A stretch of 64,000 nt of DNA, taken from NCBI GenBank assembly GCA_032622095.1, contig CP136063.1:15603814-15667813 (forward strand), in the 5' to 3' direction. The notes under the pieces were generated by a model, which had not been told where the DNA came from, did not search any database, and saw only the letters and a list, made by a program, of their open reading frames with translations. This document shows positions 28,817-55,460 of the stretch, one piece after another (the first letter of the stretch is position 1; each line of letters starts with the position of its first letter). The DNA is from Siphonodentalium dalli. Lineage: Eukaryota > Mollusca > Scaphopoda > Gadilida > Siphonodentaliidae. Made by a program: the position numbers and the translations under genes.

Positions 28817-31800
28817 TGTTATTGCCATGTTAGTGGTCCCATTGTTCTAATTGGATTAAGACAGTCACTGGGCATTCTGCAAATATTGTCATAACACCCC
28901 ATGTTTGTGCCAAATTAAGGGGTCCCCATTGATATAATTGGACTAAAACAGTCACTGGGCATATCAATTCTGCAAATATTGTCATAACATCAAATGTTTC
29001 TGCCAAATTAAGGGGTCTCCATTGCTCTAATTGGATTAAAACAGTCACTGGGCATATAAATTTTGCAAATATTGTCATAATATTCCATGTTTCTGCCAAA
29101 TTAAGGGGTTCCCATTGTTCTAATTGGATTAAAACAGTCAATGGGCATATAAATTCTTCAAATATTGTCATAACATCCCATGTTTCTGCCAAATTAAGGG
29201 GTCCCCATTGATCTAATTGGACTAAAACAGTCACTGGGCATATAAATTCTGCAAATATTGTCATAACATCACATGTTTCTGCCAAATTAAGGGGTCTCCA
29301 TTGTTCTAATTGGACTAAAACAGTCACTGGGCATATAAATTCTGCAAATATTGTCATAACATCCCATGCTTATGCCAAATCAAGGTGTCCCCATTGTTCT
29401 AATTAGACTAAAACAGTCACTGGGCATATAAATTCTGCAAATATTGTCATAACATCCCATGTTTCTGCCAAATTAAGGGGCCCATTGTTCTAATTGGACT
29501 AAAACAGTCACTGGGCATATAAATTCTGCAAATATTGTCATAACATCCCATGCTTATGCCAAATTAAGGTGTCCCCATTGTTCTAATTAGACTAAAACAG
29601 TCACTGGGCATATAAATTCTGCAAATATTGTCATAACATCCCATGTTTCTGCCAAATTAAGTGTATCCATTGATCTAATTGGAATAAAACAGTCACTGGG
29701 CATATCAATTCTGCAAATATTGTCATAACATCACATGTTTCTGCCAAATTAAGAGGTCTCCATTGTTCTAATTGGATTAAAACAGTCACTGGGCATATAC
29801 ATTTTTGGAAATATTGTAATAATATCCCATGTTTCTGCTAAAATAATGGGTCCCCATTGTTTTAATTGGATTAAAACAGTCAATGGGCATATCAATTCTT
29901 CAAATATTGTCATAACATCCCATCTTTCTGCCAAATTAAGGTGTCCCCATTGATCTAATTGGACTAAAACAGTCACTGAGCATATAAATTCTGCAAATAT
30001 CGTCATAACATCACATGTTTCTGCCAAATTAAGGGGTCTCCGTTGTTCTAATTGTATTAAAACAGTCAATGGGCATATAAATTCTGCAAATATTGTCATA
30101 TTAACAACCCATGTTTCTGCCCAATTAAGAGGTCCCCATTGTTCTAATTGGGCTACAACAGTCACTGTGCATATACTTTTTGCAAATGTTTTCTTAACAT
30201 GCCATGTTATTGGTCCCATTGTTATAATTGGATTAAGACAGTCAATGGGCATATCAGTGCTGCAAATATTGTCATAACATCCCATGTTTCTGCCAAATTA
30301 AGGGGTCCCCATTGATCTAATTGGACTAAAACAGTCACTGGGCATATCAATTCTGCAAATATTGTCATAACATCCCATGTTTCTGTCAAATTAAGGGGTC
30401 CAAATTGTTCTAATTGGACTAAAACAGTCACTGGGCATATCAATTCTGCAAATATTGTCATAACATCCCATGTTTCTGCCAAATTAAGGGGTCCCCATTG
30501 TTCTAATTAGACTAAAACAGTCACTGGGCATATAAATTCTGCAAATATTGTCATAACATCCCATGTTTCTGTCAAATTAAGGGGTCCACATTGTTCTAAT
30601 TGGACTAAAACAGTCACTGGGCATATCAATTCTGCAAATATTGTCATAACATCACATGTTTCTGCCAAATTAAGGTGTCCTCATTGTTCTAATTAGACTA
30701 AAACAGTCACTGGGCATATACATTTTGCAAATATTGTCATAATATCACATGTTTCTGCCAAATTAAGGGGTCTCCATTGTTCTAATTGGATTAAAACAGT
30801 CACAGGACATATCAATTCTGCAAATATTGTCATAACATCCCATGTTTCTGTCAAATTAAGGGGTCCAAATTGTTCTAATTGGACTAAAACAGTCACTGGG
30901 CATATCAATTCTGCAAATATTATCATAACATCCAATGTTTCTGCCAAATTAAGGTGTCCTCATTGTTCTAATTAGACTAAAACAGTCACTGGGCATATAA
31001 ATTCTGCAAATATTGTCATAACATCCCATGTTTCTGCCAAATTAAGGGGTCCCCATTGTTCTAATTGGACTAAAACAGTCACTGGGCATATAAATTATGC
31101 AAATATTGTCATAACATCCCATGTTTTGGCCAAATAAAGGGGTCCCCATTGTTATAATTGGACTTAATCAGTCACTGGGCATATAAATTCTGCAAATATT
31201 GTCATAACATCCCATGTTTCTGCCAAATTAAGGTGTCCTCGTTGTTCTAATTAGACTAAAACAGTCATTGGGCATATACATTCTGCAAATATTGTCATAA
31301 CATCCCATGTTTCTGCCAAATTAAGGGGTCCCCATTGTTCTAATTGGACTAAAACAGTCACTGGGCATATAAATTCTGCAAATATTGTCATAACATCAGA
31401 TAACATCCCATGTTTCTGCCAAATTAAGGGGTTACCATTGTTCTAATTATACTAAAACCGTCACTGGGCATATAAATTCTGCAAATATCGTCATAACATC
31501 ACATGTTTCTGCCAAATTAAGGGGTCCCCATTGTTCTAATTGGACTAAATCAGTCACTGGGCATATAAATTCTGCATATATTGTCATAACATCCCATGTT
31601 TCTGCCAAATTAAGGTGTCCCCATTGTTCTAATTAGACTAAAACAGTCACTGGGCATATAAATTCTGCAAATATTGTCATAACATCCCATGTTTCTGCCA
31701 AATTAAGGGGTCTCAATTGTTCTAATTGGACTACAACAGTCACTGGGCATATAAATTCTGCAAATATTGTCATAACATCCCATGTTTCTGCCAAATTAAG

Positions 31801-34800
31801 GTGTCCCCATTGCTCTAATTAGACTAAAACAGTCACTGGGCATATAAATTCTGCAAATATTGTCATAAATCCCATGTTTTGCCAAATTAAGGGGTCCCCG
31901 TAGTTCTAATTTGACTAAAACAGTCACTGGGCATATAAATTCTGCAAATATTGTCATACCATCCCATGTTTCTGCCAAATTACGGGGTCCCGGTTGTTCT
32001 AATTGGACTTAATCAGTCACTGGGCATATAAATTCTGCAAATATTGTCATAACATCCCATGTTTCTGCCAAATTAAGGTGTCCTCGTTGTTCTAATTAGA
32101 CTAAAACAGTCATTGGGCATATACATTCTGCAAATATTGTCATAACATCCCATGTTTCTGCCAAATTAAGGGGTCCCCATTGTTCTAATTGGACTAAATC
32201 AGTCACTGGGCATATAAATTCTGCATATATTGTCATAACATCCCATGTTTCTGCCAAATTAAGGTGTCCCCATTGTTCTAATTAGACTAAAACAGTCACT
32301 GGGCATATAAATTCTGCAAATATTGTCATAACATCCCATGTTTCTGCCAAATTAAGGGGTCTCAATTGTTCTAATTGGACTACAACAGTCACTGGGCATA
32401 TAAATTCTGCAAATATTGTCATAACATCCCATGTTTCTGCCAAATTAAGGTGTCCTCGTTGTTCTAATTAGACTAAAACAGTCATTGGGCATATACATTC
32501 TGCAAATATTGTCATAACATCCCATGTTTCTGCCAAATTAAGGGGTCCCCATTGTTCTAATTGGACTAAAACAGTCACTGGGCATATAAATTCTGCAAAT
32601 ATTGTCATAACATCAGATAACATCCCATGTTTCTGCCAAATTAAGGGGTTACCATTGTTCTAATTATACTAAAACCGTCACTGGGCATATAAATTCTGCA
32701 AATATCGTCATAACATCACATGTTTCTGCCAAATTAAGGGGTCCCCATTGTTCTAATTGGACTAAATCAGTCACTGGGCATATAAATTCTGCATATATTG
32801 TCATAACATCCCATGTTTCTGCCAAATTAAGGTGTCCCCATTGTTCTAATTAGACTAAAACAGTCACTGGGCATATAAATTCTGCAAATATTGTCATAAC
32901 ATCCCATGTTTCTGCCAAATTAAGGGGTCTCAATTGTTCTAATTGGACTACAACAGTCACTGGGCATATAAATTCTGCAAATATTGTCATAACATCCCAT
33001 GTTTCTGCCAAATTAAGGTGTCCCCATTGCTCTAATTAGACTAAAACAGTCACTGGGCATATAAATTCTGCAAATATTGTCATAAATCCCATGTTTTGCC
33101 AAATTAAGGGGTCCCCGTAGTTCTAATTTGACTAAAACAGTCACTGGGCATATAAATTCTGCAAATATTGTCATACCATCCCATGTTTCTGCCAAATTAC
33201 GGGGTCCCGGTTGTTCTAATGTGATTAAGACAGTCACTGTGCATATCAGTTCTGCAAATATTGTCATAACACCCCATGTTTCTGCCAAATTAAGGGGTCC
33301 CCATTGATCTACTAGTAATTGGAATGAAACAGTCACTGGGCATATCAATTCTGCAAATATTGTCATAACATCCCATGTTTCTGCCAAATTAAGGGGTCTC
33401 CATTGTTCTAATTGGACTAAAACAGTCACTGGGCATATAAATTCTGCAAATATTGTCATAACATCCCATGTTTCTGCCAAATTAAGGTGTCCCCATTGTT
33501 CTAATTAGACTAAAACAGTCACTGGGCATATAAATTCTGCAAATACCGGTATTGTCATAACATCCCATGTTTTGCCAAATTAAGGGGTCCCCGTTGTTCT
33601 AATTTGACTAAAACAGTCACTGGGCATATAGATTCTGCAAATATTGGCATAACATCCCATGTTTCTGCCAAATTAAGTGGTCCCCATTGTTCTAATGTGA
33701 TTAAGACAGTCACTGTGCATATCAATTCTGCAAATATTGTCATAACATCACATGTTTCTGCCAAATTAAGGGGTCTCCATTGTTCTAATTGGATTAAAAC
33801 AGCCACTGGGCATATACATTTTGGCAAATATTGTCATAATATCCCATGTTATGCTAAATTAATGGGTCCCCATTGTTCTAATTGGATTAAAACAGTCAAT
33901 GGGCATATCAATTCTTCAAATATTGTCATAACATCCCATCTTTCTGCCAAATTAAGGTGTCCCCATTGATCTAATTGGACTAAAACAGTCACTGAGCATA
34001 TAAATTCTGCAAATATCATCATAACATCACATGTTTCTGCCAAATTAAGGGGTCTCCATTGTTCTAATTGGACTAAAACAGTCACTGGGCATATAAATTC
34101 TGCAAATATTGTCATAACATCCCATGTTTCTGCCAAATTAAGGTGTCCCCATTGTTCTAATTAGACTAAAACAGTCACTGGGCATATAAATTCTGCAAAT
34201 ATTGTCATAACATCCCATGTTTCTGCCAAATTAAGTGGTCTCCATTGTTCTAATTGGACTAAAACAGTCACTGGGCATATAAATTCTGCAAATATTGTCA
34301 TAACATCCCATGTTTCTGCCAAATTAAGGTGTCCCCATTGTTCTAATTAGACTAAAACAGTCACTGGGCATATAAATTCTGCAAATATTGTCATAACATC
34401 CCATGTTTCTGCCAAATTAAGGGGTCTCCATTGTTCTAATTGGACTAAAACAGTCACTGGGCATATAAATTCTGCAAATATTGTCATAACATCCCATGTT
34501 TCTGCCAAATTAAGGTGTCCCCATTGTTCTAATTAGACTAAAACAGTCACTGGGCATATAAATTCTGCAAATACCGGTATTGTCATAACATCCCATGTTT
34601 TGCCAAATTAAGGGGTCCCTGTTGTTCTAATTGGACTAAAGAGTCACTGGGCATATAAATTCTGCAAATATTGTCATAACATCACATGTTTCTGCCAAAT
34701 TAAGGGGTCTCCATTGTTCTAATTGGATTAAAACAGTCACTGGGCATATACATTTTGGCAAATATTGTCATAATATCCCATGTTTATGCTAAATTAATGG

Positions 34801-37627
34801 GTCCCCATTGTTCTAATTGGATTAAAACAGTCAATGGGCATATCAATTCTTCAAATATTGTCATAACATCCCATCTTTCTGCCAAATTAAGGTGTCCCCA
34901 TTGATCTAATTGGACTAAAACAGTCACTGAGCATATAAATTCTGCAAATATCATCATAACATCACATGTTTCTGCCAAATTAAGGGGTCTCCATTGTTCT
35001 AATTGGACTAAAACAGTCACTGGGCATATAAATTCTGCAAATATTGTCATAACATCCCATGTTTCTGCCAAATTAAGGTGTCCCCATTGTTCTAATTAGA
35101 CTAAAACAGTCACTGGGCATATAAATTCTGCAAATATTGTCATAACATCCCATGTTTCTGCCAAATTAAGTGGTCTCCATTGTTCTAATTGGACTAAAAC
35201 AGTCACTGGGCATATACATTCTGCAAATATTGTCATAACATCCCATGTTTCTGCCAAATTAAGGTGTCCCCATTGTTCTAATTAGACTAAAACAGTCACT
35301 GGGCATATAAATTCTGCAAATATTGTCATAACATCCCATGTTTCTGCCAAATTAAGGGGTCTCCATTGTTCTAATTGGACTAAAACAGTCACTGGGCATA
35401 TAAATTCTGCAAATATTGTCATAACATCCCATGTTTCTGCCAAATTAAGGTGTCCCCATTGTTCTAATTAGACTAAAATAGTCACTGGCATATAAATTCT
35501 GCAAATACCGGTATTGTCATAACATCCCATGTTTTGCCAAATTAAGGGGTCCCCGTTGTTCTAATTGGACTAAAACAGTTACTGGGCATATAAATTCTGC
35601 AAATATTGGCATAACATCCCATGTTTATGCCAAATTAAGGGGTCCCCATTGTTCTAATGTGATTAAGACAGTCACTGTGCATATCAATTCTGCAAATATT
35701 GTCATAACACCCCATGTTTCTGCCAAATTAAGGGGTCCCCATTGATCTAATTGAAATAAAATAGTCACTGGGCATATCAATTCTGCAAATATTGTCATAA
35801 CATCACATGTTTCTGCTAAATTAAGGGGTCCCCATTGTTCTAATTGGATTAAAACAGTCAATGGTCATATCAATTCTTCAAATATTGTCATAACATCCCA
35901 TATTTCTGCCAAATTAAGGTGTCCCCATTGATCTAATTGGACTAAAACAGTCACTGAGCATATAAATTCTGCAAATATCGTCATAACATCCCATGTTTCT
36001 GCCAAATTAAGGGGTCTTCATTGTTCTAATTGGATTAAAACAGTCACTGGGCATATAAATTCTGCAATATTGTCATATTAACATCCCATGTTTCTGCCAA
36101 ATTAAGAGGTCCCCATTGTTCTAATTGGACTAAAACAGTCACTGTGCATATAATTTTTGCAAATGTTTTCTTAACATGCCATGTTATTGCCATGTTAGTG
36201 GTCCCATTGTTCTAATTGGATTAAGACAGTCACTGGGCATATCAATTCTGCAAATATTGTCATAACATCCCATGTTTCTGCCAAATTAAGGGTTCCCCAT
36301 AGATCTAATTGGACTAAAACAGTCACTGGGCATATCAATTCTGCAAATATTGTCATAACATCACATGTTTCTGCTAAATTAAGGTGTCCTCATTGTTCTA
36401 ATTAGACTAAAACAGTCACTGGGCATATACATTCTGCAAATATTGTCATAACATCCCATGCTTCTGCCAAATTAAGGGGTCCCCATTGTTCTAATTGGAC
36501 TAAAACAGTCACTGGGCATAAAATTCCGCAAATATTGTCATAACATCAGATAACATCCCATGTTTCTGCCAAATTAAGGGGTCCTCATTGTTCTAATTAT
36601 ACTAAAACAGTCACTGGGCATATAAATTCTGCAAATATCGTCATAACATCACATGTTTCTGCCAAATTAAGGGGTCTCCATTGTTCAAATTGGACTAAAA
36701 CAAAAACAGTCACTGGGCATATAAATTCTGCAAATATTGTCATAACATCCAATGTTTCTGCCAAATTAAGGTGTCCTCATTGTTCTAATTAGGCTAAAAC
36801 AGTCACTGGGCATATAAATTCTACAAATATTGTCATAACATCCCATGTTTCTGCCAAATTAAGGGGTCCCCATTGTTCTAATTGGACTAAAACAGTCACT
36901 GTGCATATCAATTCTGCAAATATTGTCATAACATCCCATGTTTCTGCCAAATTAAGGTGTCCTCATTGTTCTAATTAGACTAAAACAGTCACTGGGCATA
37001 TAAATTCTGCAAATATTGTCATAACATCCCATGTTTCTGCCAAATTAAGGGTTCCCCATTGTTCTAATTGGACTAAAACAGTCACTGGGCATACTGTATA
37101 CATTCTGCAAATATTGTCATAACATCCCATGTTTATGCCAAATTAAGGTGTCCCCATTGTTCTAATTAGACTAAAACAGTCACTGGGCATATAAATTCTG
37201 CAAATATTGTCATAACATCCCATGTTTCTGCCAAATTAAGGTGTCCTCGTTGTTCTAATTAGACTAAAACAGTCACTGGGCATATACATTCTGCAAATAT
37301 TGTCATAACATCCCATGTTTCTGCCAAATTAAGGGGTCCCCATTGTTCTAATTGGACTAAAACAGTCACTGGGCATATACATTCTGCAAATATTGTCATA
37401 ACATCCCATGTTTCTGCCAAATTAAGGTGTCCCCATTGTTCTAATTAGACTAAAACAGTCACTGGGCATATAAATTCTGCAAATATTGTCATAACATCCC
37501 ATGTTTTGCCAAATTAAGAGGTCCCCATTGTTCTAATTGGACTAAAACAGTCACTGTGCATATAATGTTTGCAAATGTTTTCTTAACATGCCATGTTATT
37601 GCCATGTTAGTGGTCCCATTGTTCTAA
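28817..37627. repeat. 93-bp tandem repeat array, ~95 copies, intronic
   Basis: Unit of 93 bp with landmarks TTTCTGCCAAATTAAGG, CATTGTTCTAATT, AAAACAGTCACTGGGC and CAAATATTGTCATAACATC. Because 93 is 31 codons, minus-strand ORFs of up to 178 residues appear, showing a 31-residue periodicity (MTIFAE, CPVTVLVQLEQW, PLNLAET). They are broken by stops and indels, so I treat them as by-products. Two subtypes alternate over long parts: one reads AATTGGAC, the other AATTAGAC, which puts TAA in the minus frame, giving a 186-bp dimer. Larger blocks are duplicated too. Both array ends carry the same variant (TTATTGCCATGTTAGTGG). Confidence 0.97.
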
Positions 37628-43232: not shown

Positions 43233-43264
43233 ACACACACACTGACAAGGTATTATGCTAACAG

Positions 43265-43493
43265 GTGCTGGTGGTGATGACGGATGGTCAATCAAATTTG
43301 AGGTCACGTACTTTGGCTGAGGCGGCGCTTCTACATGAAACAAACATAAAATGCTTCGCCATGGGGATTGGACAGAATGTCGACGAGGTGGAACTGGAAG
43401 CTATAGCATCGAACGTCGACTATGTGTTTAATGTGTCGGACTTTGACTCGTTGGACACATTCAAGGAAATCATACAGGGGAATGCGTTCGAAG
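43265..43493 (+). CDS. Exon B: C-terminal half of the VWA domain
   Basis: The exon follows GCTAACAG, starts on a whole codon and ends GCGTTCGAAG|GTGGGT, leaving one base (phase 1). The first residues VLVVMTDGQSN form the hydrophobic strand and the third MIDAS residue (the D of TDG), exactly what exon A lacks. Then come the helix LRSRTLAEAALLHE, the strand IKCFAMGIG, the segment VDEVELEAIASN, VDYVFNVSDFDSL and the closing helix DTFKEIIQG, the normal order of a VWA fold. The A plus B domain is about 180 residues, normal for the family, with all MIDAS positions present (DASGS, T, D), so it should bind metal. The open reading continues 104 nt past the donor by chance. Confidence 0.94.
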
Positions 43494-45282
43494 GTGGGTT
43501 CAATTTATTTCACATTTTAGAACAAATTCACCCATCAGTAGCATGTATCATTGATGTGAACATGTATATGCCAGTCATAATGGTGAGGGAGTTGTAATTT
43601 GTCTAATAAGTCAATTCTGAACCACGCATAGCTGTCGTAAGCTGATTCATGTGTCAAACTTTAGCTTCATTGGAGTCGTTGTTATCTATAGTATTGTTGT
43701 AACAATTTTTTTGAGGGAATTAGCTCACTTTACGACATTCCGAATATATTATTAAATGATACAGAAGCAATAAACGGCGGTCTGCACGGAGTCTCCTAGC
43801 ATAGACTCAATAAACGGCGAAGTCCGCATGGAGACAACTACCATATAATCAATTACTACTAGCTTTTAATCTCTGCTTCGATAATTTAACATCATTGAAT
43901 CATTGATTATATAATGTACTTTGTGGGCACAAGGTAAATAACACTATCAATAGAGATTTTGACATAATATGGCTTATCTCGGCGTCAACAATTTCAGCGT
44001 TGTGGTTGTGTTTAAATAGACTCTATGTCATTAAATTATTGCTTGGCCAGAAGCTAATTAGCTGAAATTTGTGACCAAAAGGTGATAAGTTACAAACCAA
44101 ACGACGCGCCATTGTCTACACACTTGGAACTAATATTACTTGCCAGAGTTACATAAACGAATATCATCGAGTACCCATGAACCCCAACGTAGTACACAAT
44201 GCCCATGCACTCCAACGTAGTACACAATGTCTATGTACCCCAAGTAGTACACGATTTTGAAAATACAGTTGTAACGAACGACAGACGTATAATATTATGA
44301 CTGATAATCAAAATCGCCGTACAACTATACCCGTTCTGATAATATAACTATGTGAGAATTCTGCCACTTCTCGTCTCCTTCATTAACTCTGCCTCTTATT
44401 CTATTTCGTGCCAAATGCATATTACTCTCTCAAAAGTCCTCATTCTTTAGTTGATTTGTATGGTATTCGTATTTTTTTAATCAAATATTTTCCATTTCAC
44501 TTTCAAATATTTATAAATATTAATAATTAATTAACTAAAATCGTTTTAACTCAAATGTGAACTCAAATCTGCACCAACATTCGACCATTCAATGAAAACG
44601 AGAGAGTTCCATTTGTAAAAGGCCACCAGTATAGTGATATAACCATACTGTGATTTGCATAAAGGCTCCAGAATGATCGAAAGCTAATAGTGCGAGCTTT
44701 CTTTGCCCGATGTGTCACACGAAAGTGTAATTTCAACGACAACCATATTAATATAGTCTAGATATTCTAATTTCAGGATGCTATTGTTTTTGTGTGAATG
44801 TGTGGGTCCAGATATCATTGTGTTCACACTTCCCTCATGCTATCCAACCCTATGTGTATGAATTTTCGCCTTATGTCCCGTGAAGTTAATTATTCTAAGT
44901 TTCTTAATAAACCGTCAGGCTATAATGTACTGTACGTACATGTAACTCAATTTGGAATAAACTCAGGAGTCATACCATTTTTCGCTCATTTTTAGCTTCG
45001 CGCACCCATCGACTGTATAATATAGCAACAACTAGGCTAACTACCGAACGAAAACAATATACATCGACTGTATAATATAGCAACAACCAGGCTAACTACC
45101 GAACGAAAACAATATACATCGACTGTATAATATAGCAACAACCAGGCTAACTACCGAACGAAAACAATATACATCGACTGTATAATATTGCAACCACACA
45201 AAAAACCTTCTACTACGCGGTCGTGATATGTCACGTGTCTCATCTCAATCAAAAGCCAATGGCCAACACGTATCTACTTCAG
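43494..45282 (+). other. Intron B/C (1.8 kb)
   Basis: It begins GTGGGT and ends TATCTACTTCAG, and it joins phase 1 to phase 1: G from exon B plus AG from exon C gives Glu. Contents are short repeats: CAATAAACGGCG twice (43769 and 43809), a ~31-bp motif with AACGTAGTACACAATG three times in decaying form (about 44175-44255), and the 55-bp repeat at 45007-45196. No other gene is seen. Confidence 0.8.
45007..45196. repeat. 55-bp tandem repeat, about 3.4 copies
   Basis: Units start at 45007, 45062 and 45117, with a partial fourth at 45172. Each begins CATCGACTGTATAATATAGC and contains AGGCTAACTACCGAACG. Copies 2 and 3 are identical and copy 1 has one difference. The array ends about 86 bp before exon C. 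Confidence 0.95.
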
Positions 45283-45480
45283 AGGACCCTTGCTTCAAAT
45301 ACCAGACGAAAGAGGACACTAATGGCGATCGATCGTACCATGTCGACAGCATCAGCTTCCTATGCGATAACAACATAACATCAGGCTGGTACCGTGTTAT
45401 CAGTCCTGCTGGTGACGATATGGCGACATCGTGCCCGGGAACACTGAAGTGTGGAGCCCTCTACCCTGTATGGATGGATG
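45283..45480 (+). CDS. Exon C: first half of a D8C (uromodulin/GP2/VWDE-type) domain
   Basis: The exon follows TCTACTTCAG. Two bases (AG) complete a Glu with the G from exon B, giving the junction NAFE-E-DPCFKY. The translation has the hallmarks of the D8C domain: a Cys near the start (DPC), YHVDSISFLCDN, SGWYRVISPAGD, the MATSCPG block and the KCGALYPVWMDG motif, which corresponds to the CG..aP.W..G signature of uromodulin, GP2 and VWDE. Four cysteines and a glycosylation sequon (NIT) are present. With the first donor used (GGATG|GTAAGT) the exon is 198 nt and ends in phase 1, joining exon D as Gly (WMDG-NLP). The last 36 bp are the first copy of a 28-copy array, so the true 3' end may lie at any of 45480+36n up to 46452. 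Function: extracellular Cys-rich module, partner unknown. Confidence 0.9.
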
Positions 45481-46454
45481 GTAAGTGTGGAGCCCTCTAC
45501 CCTGTATGGATGGATGGTAAGTGTGGAGCCCTCTACCCTGTATGGATGGATGGTAAGTGTGGAGCCCTCTACCCTGTATGGATGGATGGTAAGTGTGGAG
45601 CCCTCTACCCTGTATGGATGGATGGTAAGTGTGGAGCCCTCTACCATGTATGGATGGATGGTAAGTGTGGAGCCCTCTACCCTGTATGGATGGATGGTAA
45701 GTGTGGAGCCCTCTACCCTGTATGGATGGATGGTAAGTGTGGAGCCCTCTACCATGTATGGGTGGATGGTAAGTGTGGAGCCCTCTACCCTGTATGGATG
45801 GATGGTAAGTGTGGAGCCCTCTACCCTGTATGGATGGATGGTAAGTGTGGAGCCCTCTACCCTGTATGGATGGATGGTAAGTGTGGAGCCCTCTACCCTG
45901 TATGGATGGATGGTAAGTGTGGAGCCCTCTACCCTGTATGGATGGATGGTAAGTGTGGAGCCCTCTACCCTGTATGGATGGATGGTAAGTGTGGAGCCCT
46001 CTACCCTGTATGGATGGATGGTAAGTGTGGAGCCCTCTACCCTGTATGGATGGATGGTAAGTGTGGAGCCCTCTACCCTGTATGGATGGATGGTAAGTGT
46101 GGAGCCCTTTACCCTGTATGGATGGATGGTAAGTGTGGAGCCCTCTATCCTGTATGGATGGATGGTAAGTGTGGAGCCCTCTACCCTGTATGGATGGATG
46201 GTAAGTGTGGAGCCCTCTACCCTGTATGGATGGATGGTAAGTGTGGAGCCCTCTACCCTGTATGGATGGATGGTAAGTGTGGAGCCCTCTACCCTGTATG
46301 GATGGATGGTAAGTGTGGAGCCCTCTACCCTGTATGGATGGATGGTAAGTGTGGAGCCCTCTACCCTGTATGGATGGATGGTAAGTGTGGAGCCCTCTAC
46401 CCTGTATGGATGGATGGTAAGTGTGGAGGCCTCTACCCTGTATGGATGGATGGT
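45447..46454 (+). repeat. 36-bp minisatellite, exactly 28 copies, each with an in-phase splice donor
   Basis: 28 x 36 = 1008 bp. The unit begins AAGTGTGGAGCCCTCTACCC and ends ATGGATGGATGGT. It encodes KCGALYPVWMDG in the exon C frame and spans the exon end, so every copy holds ATG|GTAAGT at the same phase. Only six substitutions from consensus are seen (copy 6: one, copy 9: two, copies 19, 20 and 28: one each), about 99.4% homogeneous. Two cause Pro-to-His, one Met-to-Val and one Ala-to-Gly; two are silent. The frame stays open through the array and meets TGA at 46461-46463. Another plus frame and one minus frame are open too, as by-products of the 36-bp periodicity. Confidence 0.98.
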
Positions 46455-46993
46455 AAGTGTTGATCTACAGCTACTTGTACGTTTTGAATATCTTGTTAGA
46501 GGGCACTCACAAAATATGTTCATTATCATGAATTATACAGCGCGTCCGCGGTTAGTGTTTATGACATATTATTGACTAGTTCGAGTGCGTGAAACTGATA
46601 AGTTAGTACTCAGGCGAGATGCCAACTTGGGGAATGTAGAATAATACTAGCATCCCAAAACTTTCAAAGAAAATACCACTCCATAGAATACATGGTCTGA
46701 ACTACGCTCAGTTTTAAATATCAATCTCGATTCGGGACGCAACTACATATATAGGCGATATCCTAACACAAGTGATTTCGCCATTGAGAGTCATTGCATT
46801 TAATTAATATATGACTGGCGGCCTGTTAATTTGGATTAATTATCGTAAAAATAATAACATCTACATCTATGTGGTCACCCTACCGGAGTAGTTCGCGTCA
46901 CTTTAACACCACTGACATTCACATAGTTGTCAATATTCAATAGATGAGATCAGTGAGAAGTTATACACGATTGGCGAGGTCGGTGAGTAGTTA

Positions 46994-47154
46994 TATAAGG
47001 ATTAACTGTCATGTGGACTGTTTTTATGGAGATGTAACGGTGAGGTAAGTGGACATAACTTGTGTAAAACCCGACGGGTTTTACATACGAGTTATGTCCA
47101 CTTACCTCACCGTTACATCTCCATAAAAATAGTCCACATGACAGTTAAGCCTTA
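46994..47154. repeat. Long inverted repeat, ~80-bp arms, 1-nt centre
   Basis: Left arm landmarks TTAACTGTCATGTGGACTG, TGGAGATGTAACGGTGAGG and GTGGACATAACT return as reverse complements in the right arm (AGTTATGTCCAC, CCTCACCGTTACATCTCC, CACATGACAGTTAA). The centre GTAAAACCCG-A-CGGGTTTTAC is perfect. A few mismatches near the centre (TGT versus ATACG) and one A/C difference near the ends argue for a real, slightly aged foldback element. Confidence 0.92.
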
Positions 47155-48979
47155 TATTTATATACATTTAGCGAAAAAGCCACTTTTGTAAATATATTTA
47201 AATCGAAAAGTGTATCGTGACAAGTCAGACAAGATCAGCCCAAAATACCCAATAGCACCCTTGGCAAAAGTTAATAGGAACAATTTCTCTTCATGTTGAA
47301 ACCCGATGATGTATTAAGTCAATCCTGCGCGAGTCAAAATGCGCCCAAAGCATTACGCGTTCGTCTTTTCAAACCTAATGTATATCGATGGTGTTATTAG
47401 CTTGGTGTTATGAGGCGTTGCGCATTCACCGAGAAATAACTGCAACTAGCCACGTGGGCGCCGACCAATCAGAATGCTGGATTTAGTGATGACAACACTT
47501 AGTGTGTAAATATACTCAATTGATATAAGCGGGGACTCTCGTCAGCCGCACCCGGGTCTTGTCTTGACACTCAATACAATAGTGGCAGATGCGTGGAGGC
47601 ACAATCGAAAATGGGGTTCTACATGTCTATACACGTCTCCACTGGAAGTGCAAATTGCGAAAGCGGTCATGTTGACGTAGGTACAACCATCTTACTATGT
47701 TAAGACTGTACACGCCAAAGACACATTGTATGCGAACAGCGTCGGTGGTGTTTATATATATTCCTAGTGATGCACATAGTGTGTATGCATACAAAATAGC
47801 TATGCTATACGTAATCTACCCCTTTAATGAGGTTGTAGATCAATAATACCGCCAGTATAGTGATACCGCCTCGAGTGCTAGCGGTTGACATATGGTATCC
47901 GCTGGTATCCGCTGGTAATCTCACTACGGTAATAACTGCGATAACCAAGTAAATTTCCGCAGCGTTCATTTAGTTTTTTACTGCAAAAACTGTTTTTATA
48001 AACTGTTTACGGTTAATTCAACATACAAAGTTGGTCACTGAACGCCATTTGCGATTGCATCATCAATGCACGCCATGCCAGAAATAAACAATTTATCTGG
48101 TGTGGTTACAATACCGATTTAAAACAATACAATACGTCTATCAGTGAACGAGATATTTGACTGCGGTTGTTGACATGAACACGGTCGAGTAGTGCGGGAA
48201 TAACGGAGTCTAAGGTGGGTCGATTAATTAGGGCATATCTTTATGTATTTCCATAGTGATTCTGGATTTCCTTTACCGTACATAAATGTGCATTAAACTC
48301 CCAATAGTATTGTTTCTTCATATCTTCAGAAAACCTTATTTATGTGAGATTGGTTGTAATTCGTTTAATTAGGTTTAATTGGTACATAGTGCTGTTCCGG
48401 TAACCCACCTGCCCCTACATGTAGTCCAGACGTCCTCCGTTATTAATTTTATCGATACCATAAAAATATACAAAGCGCACTAACCGCAACAACATAAAAT
48501 CATGTGTAATCAATATCTGATTATAGTACAATAGTGATAATCAGTCGCTGATCTGAATTATTTGCACTGAAAATCTTATATAAGAAGCGCCTCTGTGTAT
48601 ATGGTCAACTGGTTATTGAACCAGTTTCAACATCTGATTTTATCGCGATAATGTTTATTACAAATAATGACAATGATTAGTTACCCCTTCCAATAAAAAA
48701 ACCAAGTAATCTGCCCAGTGTGTCTTATAACCACCGGTTGTGCAAATGGCATATATTCAGATAAAATATATGTAAACAATATGTTCATAGCCCAATCACA
48801 TTTGTTTTCCTTCCGTTACCGGTAACATCACTAGCAATACCGCGTATCTATTTGGAGGTGGGCCAGTGGTTTTTAAGCCCTTTCATGACGGGAGCTGCGC
48901 TGGCGCAGCATTAGCACATCCAGCTTCAGTCCATTCTCGTACAATGTACTGTCTTAAAATGTCAATGTAAATATTGTTA

Positions 48980-50209: not shown

Positions 50210-50377
50210 GAAACCTTCCGACTCCATCTGACAGAACTGTCCGCCGGAAGATGTGCGTTTCCACCGGAAGTAGCTGCTGCACATATACGACGACATTTAG
50301 AATGCGGAATTGTGGGGATTACTATGTCTACAAGCTCGCTCCACTGAGCACACCTTGCCAATATCGATTCTGCTTTG
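50210..50377 (+). CDS. Exon D: second half of the D8C domain
   Basis: The exon follows CCCAAAACAG and ends TGCTTTG|GTGAGT; 168 nt, phase 1 at both ends. The translation NLPTPSDRTVRRKMCVS, then TGSSCCTYTTTF, RMRNCGDYYVYKLAPLS and TPCQYRFCF matches the C-terminal half of D8C domains in order: R..C, G.CC, V..C..YYVY.L and C...YC. The pattern NCG-YYVY-L is characteristic. Six cysteines are present. With exon C the domain is about 120 residues and complete. The WMDG|NLP junction falls where other family members have a variable linker, so extra 12-residue copies of CGALYPVWMDGK could be inserted there without touching the later cysteines. Confidence 0.92.
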
Positions 50378-54802: not shown

Positions 54803-55224
54803 ACAGGGTAAAAAAAGTCCCGACTTACGACTGGATTTGATATGGCGGGTCACATTTAACAGAATCGGTTTATCGATATTACACCCATGCTTTAAAGTGA
54901 GTTATCCTTTTACGGGGACCATATATTTGGTACGTTCCATTGGTTTACTCGTAACATTACTAGTGCCAGAACAACTTCCTATAAACCGTATATATAGGAA
55001 ACAACGTTCTGATTGATTCAATTACGGGACTCTTGGCAGCGTGGTGACTTCTATACTCCGGACGTTGTCAATGACGCCGTGTTCCTTTCAGAATGTATCA
55101 TCTGACCAGTGGCCGATGCCGGTGAATCGAAAACTATAGTTAGCATCTCTTGACCAATCATAATGTTTGTTTCAACGACAATTATTCAACTTGAATTAAT
55201 AATGTGCACATGTCGGTTCTTCAG

Positions 55225-55460
55225 ATCCGCAACCAGGTATAACAATATATCCTGAGGTGGAGGCGTTATTGTTTGAAGGAAACATAAGCTTCCGCTGTAA
55301 CATAGACGCGGCGAACGAAATGTATGACGTGACCTGGAGGATAGACGGTGAGGAAATACAGAAGTCCGTGCATGTGGTGTCTGTGGATGGCAAACTACCA
55401 CCGGAGACGTATTTAATGGAGTATCCGTGGCTGTACCGCAACATCACAATCGGATTCTTA
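55225..55460 (+). CDS. Exon F: VWDE-like region, first part
   Basis: The exon follows GGTTCTTCAG. It begins with two bases that complete Asp with the G of exon E and ends GGATTCTTA|GTAAGC on a whole codon. Reading DPQPGITIYPEVEALL, then FEGNISFRCNIDAANE, YDVTWRIDGEEIQ, SVHVVSVDGKLPPETY and WLYRNITIGFL. The pattern of a Pro-rich start, a strand with one Cys (F.C.I), then V.W..DG and a C-terminal L....I..GF resembles the Ig-like or filamin-like segment between the D8C and VWD domains of VWDE proteins. This match is from memory of the family, not a search. Two sequons (NIS, NIT) fit an extracellular location. Confidence 0.8.

Follow-up and report, generated by a model that had tools for sequence, protein, structure and literature searches.

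In the scaphopod Siphonodentalium dalli, a 36-bp segment covering the end of a D8C-domain exon and the start of the following intron is present in 28 nearly identical tandem copies, each with its own intact 5' splice site in the same phase. We interpret this array as a mirage-type minisatellite in a gene that is probably spliced mainly through the first of these donors (position 45481). As a boundary-spanning minisatellite the array is known in kind; its copy number, identical donors and in-frame unit are unusual. The window analyzed is the whole 64,000-nucleotide stretch C3:15,603,814-15,667,813 of an assembly of 2.23 Gb in 9 contigs, and positions without a contig name refer to it. The relevant features are listed below.

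43262 to 43493, forward strand: VWA-domain exon upstream, C-terminal part of the VWA domain (Pfam PF00092, E 2.8e-11); start set at the ORF limit, phase-1 donor at 43494
45007 to 45194, forward strand: tandem array of recent origin, 55 bp x 3.4 copies, 98% (TRF), in the intron that precedes exon C and close to that exon; a sign of local minisatellite activity
45283 to 45480, forward strand: exon C ending at the first donor, 198 nt, first half of the D8C/D10C domain; acceptor TACTTCAG/AG
45447 to 46454, forward strand: 28 tandem copies of the 36-bp unit AAGTGTGGAGCCCTCTACCCTGTATGGATGGATGGT (TRF and unit-by-unit comparison)
45481 to 45486, forward strand: first donor GATG/GTAAGT, judged likeliest to be in use from the sequence and the conserved intron position; 27 identical donors follow, one every 36 bp
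46455 to 46460, forward strand: AAGTGT, the 6 bp of the unit's exonic start (45447-45452), in the intron directly after the last full copy; possible slippage seed
50210 to 50377, forward strand: exon D, second half of the D8C/D10C domain; phase-1 acceptor ACAG/GAAACC, donor TTTG/GTGAGT
about 55203 to 55439, forward strand: Ig-like exon downstream with ORF-based limits (sub-threshold Pfam matches to Ig_3, E 6e-4, and Ig_VWDE, E 0.17)

Exon C and its repeated end

The donors and acceptors at the B-C and C-D junctions are canonical and in phase 1, and the introns flanking exon C measure 1789 and 4729 nt. When exon C is joined to exon D from donor 1, the product matches Pfam D8C_UMOD (PF23283) with 32.1 bits against a cut-off of 27 and retrieves uromodulin and GP2 from the PDB (best E 1.1e-13, uromodulin); the splice junction WMDG/NLP falls in a gap-free alignment to uromodulin. 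Exon C by itself matched no Pfam family. The acceptor of exon C and the Pfam and uromodulin matches bear out the original prediction that the repeated unit spans the exon/intron boundary of a real D8C exon, and the exon D that it placed downstream is present with its phase-1 acceptor at 50210.

The array begins with the last 34 bases of exon C and continues into the intron, the boundary-spanning arrangement of a mirage minisatellite. TRF reports it at 45447-46460 with period 36, 28.2 copies and a score of 1986; its periodicity extends 6 bases past the last full copy. A unit-by-unit count of the 28 full copies found 6 substitutions in 1008 bases, or 99.40% identity to the consensus, in agreement with the copy number, position and approximate identity (~99.4%) claimed at the outset. 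These variants are C20A (copies 6 and 9), A28G (copy 9), C15T (copy 19), C18T (copy 20) and C11G (copy 28), and the C20A common to copies 6 and 9 hints at a secondary duplication of three units. The 9-mer ATG/GTAAGT is intact in all 28 units, with donors at 45481 + 36n and the last at 46453, so that the phase-1 donor foreseen for each copy was found in every one. Splice signals thus lie inside every repeat unit, as in mirage minisatellites, and near-identical tandem 5' splice sites stand at the exon end, as in the repeated donors of the F7 type. The frame of exon C is open across all copies and closes just past the last donor at a TGA (46461-46463). An intact frame and 28 intact donors are also what a coding role predicts. 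Within a unit, 108 single changes are possible (22 synonymous, 79 nonsynonymous and 7 to stop), and because only 6 substitutions occurred this count has no power to tell whether selection acts inside the array. Pfam matches along the array frame (DUF5637, Ntox33, Cmr2_Zn-bd and DUF346) were rejected as artefacts of repetition; no stretch passes alone.

The D8C/D10C domain is defined by ten cysteines, C1-C10, which in the GP2 structure are paired C1-C8, C2-C9, C3-C6, C4-C10 and C5-C7; a shorter D8C construct was described as barely expressed and unsecreted (PMC8930769). All ten are present in the product that includes one array copy (k=1). Four of the 28 donors (1, 2, 3 and 28) were joined to exon D in silico, and all four joins were in frame with no stop. 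Each added copy lengthened the stretch from C4 to C5 by 12 residues, one of them a cysteine, giving 10, 11, 12 and 37 cysteines in the C+D product for k=1, 2, 3 and 28, respectively. The ten-cysteine pattern is kept by donor 1 alone because the repeated segment carries C4. The earlier claim that any donor joins correctly therefore stands for the reading frame, as far as these four donors go, and fails for the ten-cysteine D10C pattern.

Origin and genomic setting

We propose that tandem amplification caught a 36-bp segment that by chance lay across the exon C/intron boundary, plausibly through slippage or unequal exchange seeded by AAGTGT, a motif present both in the exon, where it encodes Lys-Cys, and in the intron at positions +3 to +8. 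Slippage or unequal exchange is suggested because the AAGTGT at the start of the unit recurs at these intron positions; the motif is read from the array's own edges and may be a by-product of the amplification rather than its cause. The array would be tolerated and free to change length because the unit is open and a multiple of three, and length polymorphism is to be expected.

Tandem amplification is ordinary in the window because about half of it is satellite, in addition to the 55-bp array just upstream of exon C. The satellites are two long blocks with 50-bp and 93-bp units at 1-23079 and 28838-37627. The intron that contains the array also holds an inverted repeat ~540 bp past the array's end (46993-47063 and 47087-47157), with 71-nt arms that are 96% complementary and 23 nt apart.

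Several searches placed the array in the context of the genome. A pattern of four GTAAGT at 36-bp spacing gave 654 overlapping matches, 25 of them from the window array, and its reversed control gave 1260; a special enrichment of 36-bp GTAAGT arrays in the genome is unsupported, the reversed pattern being the commoner. Minisatellites with this period are common in the genome. The array itself is clearly beyond chance, and its unusual feature is its position rather than the existence of such arrays. A DNA search with three units returned the window array as its sole locus; uniqueness of the unit is not proven by this result because such a search can miss repeats, a comparable search having missed its own query's locus. 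An exact genome pattern with CCAGTATGG, in which one base of the unit differs, gave zero matches.

Boundary arrays were counted in several sets of exons. Among D8C loci, an array crosses the exon C boundary in 1 of 24, the window locus only, and an array lies over the boundary in 1 of 19 exon D loci fetched from 20 matches, the twentieth being the window's own. None was found in 11 Ig and VWA exons (2 of 3 Ig matches and 9 of 58 VWA matches). Of 40 trypsin exons, fetched from 137 matches, 3 had an array no more than 40 bp from the matched stretch. The first of these arrays (36 bp x 2.9) is in a frame interrupted by stops, the second (13 bp x 5.2) lies outside the matched stretch, and the third (47 bp x 2.0) sits where a C-terminal match ends. 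The rates for Ig, VWA and trypsin exons are rough because exon limits were taken as match limits.

Donor choice and alternative readings

Boundary-spanning repeats are known from a few systems. Lancelet 'mirages' are tandem duplications at exon/intron boundaries in the Adh3, globin, TnC and PGBD5 genes that reportedly leave regular splicing undisturbed (PMC3087553, PMC3902484); their units could serve as cryptic sites, and they have been proposed as a source of new introns (PMC3087553). As described there, they share with the window array a minisatellite-like structure, a location across a splice boundary (at either end of an intron) and many units with AG/GT signals. The lancelet examples include 3 or 6 units of 150-160 bp, depending on haplotype, in the BflGb6 globin gene and units of 10-72 bp in Adh3, whereas all 28 units of the window array are exactly 36 bp long, nearly identical and in frame, and every one carries the donor GTAAGT. 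In human F7, 37-bp repeats in intron 7 carry repeated 5' splice sites of which normally only the most upstream is used (PMC6627357). This case, like ours, is a tandem repeat of nearly the same unit length that starts from an exon end and repeats the 5' splice site, and so offers a natural test among near-equal donors. It differs in that its downstream donors shift the frame, because 37 bp is not a multiple of three, whereas each step among the 28 window donors keeps it. In human segmental duplications, gene structure is altered by ~30-bp minisatellites, internal tandem repeats that can lie at exon-intron boundaries (PMC2812944). These are likewise short minisatellites, some of them at boundaries, but average ~4 copies, and an array of intact donors is not described in the part of that report considered here. 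Within the open-licence papers searched, an array of the present size was not found, and these three cases were the closest.

Published cases of equal tandem donors point to the first site. In human minigenes spliced by exon definition, two equal strong donors 52 nt apart led to exclusive use of the upstream one (PMC9225289). In the human data of that study this preference is clear-cut in the minigenes only: it falls to 60% for naturally occurring near-equal donors, and across all alternative donors the downstream site is preferred in ~60%. Exclusive upstream use was seen in a setting of long flanking introns, and the long introns on either side of exon C were therefore counted in favor of donor 1. 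Under exon definition the upstream acceptor would pair with the nearest of several equal donors, making the donor at 45481 the one mainly used; donor 1 is the most likely choice because exon definition favors the nearest equal donor. Copies 2-28 would then be removed with the 4.7-kb intron, leaving the protein with the usual ten cysteines in its D8C/D10C domain. A later donor, if used now and then, would cause in-frame insertions without frameshifts, and some such use beside donor 1 is possible. The short pyrimidine tract at the acceptor of exon C might loosen exon definition, and this animal may differ from the sources of these precedents, which are human minigenes, human F7 and lancelet genes. 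Masking of array donors by RNA structure is unsupported because the fold of ~4 units is not unusually stable (z +1.21; it was equalled or bettered by 182 of 200 shuffled sequences).

The best of the alternatives, which we nevertheless regard as unlikely, is the one put forward originally: splicing would draw on several donors, and the gene would produce a ladder of proteins, each containing CGALYPVWMDGK from once to several times, in principle 28 times. In its favor, the 28 donors are identical, local sequence barely distinguishes the copies, and the four joins tried are open and in frame. In human duplicated genes, moreover, 66% of the intron modifications driven by such repeats also have a transcript in which the repeat is retained in the exon (PMC2812944). 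Against a ladder stand the published equal-donor cases, which favor the upstream site (PMC6627357, PMC9225289), the extra cysteine that each copy would add inside a disulfide-dense domain, and the relatives of exon C. The genome contains 24 exon C matches at E up to 10, 23 besides the window and the last three weak. At the 21 whose exon end could be aligned (window included; L021, L023 and L024 were left unscored), GT directly follows the first base of the WxxG glycine codon in every case, and each of the other 20 exon ends has a single copy. We read this as an old splice site that carries a new array.

The gene itself has close relatives. A collinear paralog lies ~270 kb away at C3:15.34-15.39 Mb, with VWA (15338758), exon C (15377626), exon D (15386452) and Ig (15391658) in order; its VWA exon and exon D are 82% and 95% identical to those of the window gene, and the exon C donor of this nearest paralog is one GATG/GTGAGT. 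Exon C, exon D and Ig also occur together at a third locus near C3:297.02 Mb, and Ig exon homologues were found near two D8C paralogs on C3. Matches to the VWA exon also included a run of 15 with equal scores on one strand at C4:203,601,887-203,653,752, a local cluster of VWA genes. Compared with the collinear paralog, exon C of the window gene shows a Ka/Ks of 0.14 and exon D one of 0.09; the two exons together give 0.14 (bootstrap 0.07-0.25). By this comparison purifying selection acts on exons C and D, and the gene is probably functional because the ratios are as low as 0.09-0.14. A pseudogene or unexpressed gene, in which the array would be without consequence for splicing, is accordingly very improbable: only four exons were traced, but they are open, the splice sites at B-C and C-D are canonical, and the VWA-D8C-Ig order is kept in the paralog.

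We give still less weight to a mostly exonic array, in which splicing would start from the last donor or another late one and give a protein with a long tandem repeat of the 12-residue unit. The frame that stays open through the copies, with a stop only past the last donor, and the in-frame 1170-nt exon (k=28) would fit such a protein. It would, however, place 324 residues, 27 cysteines among them, in the middle of the D8C domain, although exons C and D align as one domain and evolve under purifying selection, and exon definition again favors a nearer donor (PMC9225289). Equally little is to be said for the array or its copy number being an artefact of assembly, since the single assembly and the error-prone nature of tandem arrays are set against a window without N, an array of ~1 kb with variant copies scattered through it, and comparable arrays at other places in the assembly. 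Use of mainly the first donor beside a tolerated minisatellite remains our preferred reading.

Amplification at the acceptor side and its meaning

A second array, the one counted above among the 19 exon D loci, lies over the exon D acceptor of a paralog at C2:20.69 Mb (C2:20,691,864-20,727,863, minus strand). Here an 83-bp unit is repeated in 251.4 copies, 97% alike, over ~20.8 kb. The array has a stretch resembling exon C (E 2.6e-4) on one side and exon D on the other, and its units repeat the acceptor and the first 39 nt of exon D. We counted 239 acceptor motifs TTCAG/GTTC[A/G]CTCC, the real exon D start included; in all 239 the next 39 nt can be read through in phase 1, and in 234 they are succeeded by GTGTGT or GTATGT. 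The units are potentially in-frame 39-nt mini-exons, although, being so short and having middling donors, they may well be ignored by splicing. The related locus at C2:20.076 Mb (C2:20,074,800-20,079,800) has an 83-bp array of 8.9 copies, with the array on the other strand. Since the exon D regions of the two loci are 95% identical over ~250 nt and their arrays contain 251.4 versus 8.9 copies, copy number has changed greatly between them, and mirages are a recurrent feature of this genome. Unexpectedly, this second amplification concerns the opposite end of the same conserved intron whose donor end is repeated in the window gene.

Taken together, one gene of the family has 28 donors in the same phase, and another has ~240 pseudo-exons of 39 nt, likewise in phase, almost all of which have both an acceptor and a donor-like site. 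It is conceivable, but in our estimation improbable, that both ends of one conserved intron are growing in-frame cassette arrays in the D8C family and thereby creating proteins of variable length that differ between individuals; a variable-length protein from the window gene is possible. Were splicing to draw on these cassettes, a minisatellite at a splice site would be a mechanism of diversity in which array length and site choice set protein length. The window array is also a natural experiment, for its 28 donors are identical, in frame and in near-identical surroundings, so that their use would be decided nearly by position alone. Together with its acceptor-side counterpart, it would show that boundary-spanning minisatellites are not confined to the lancelet and human cases described above, and that they can reach a far higher copy number and occupy both sides of one intron position.
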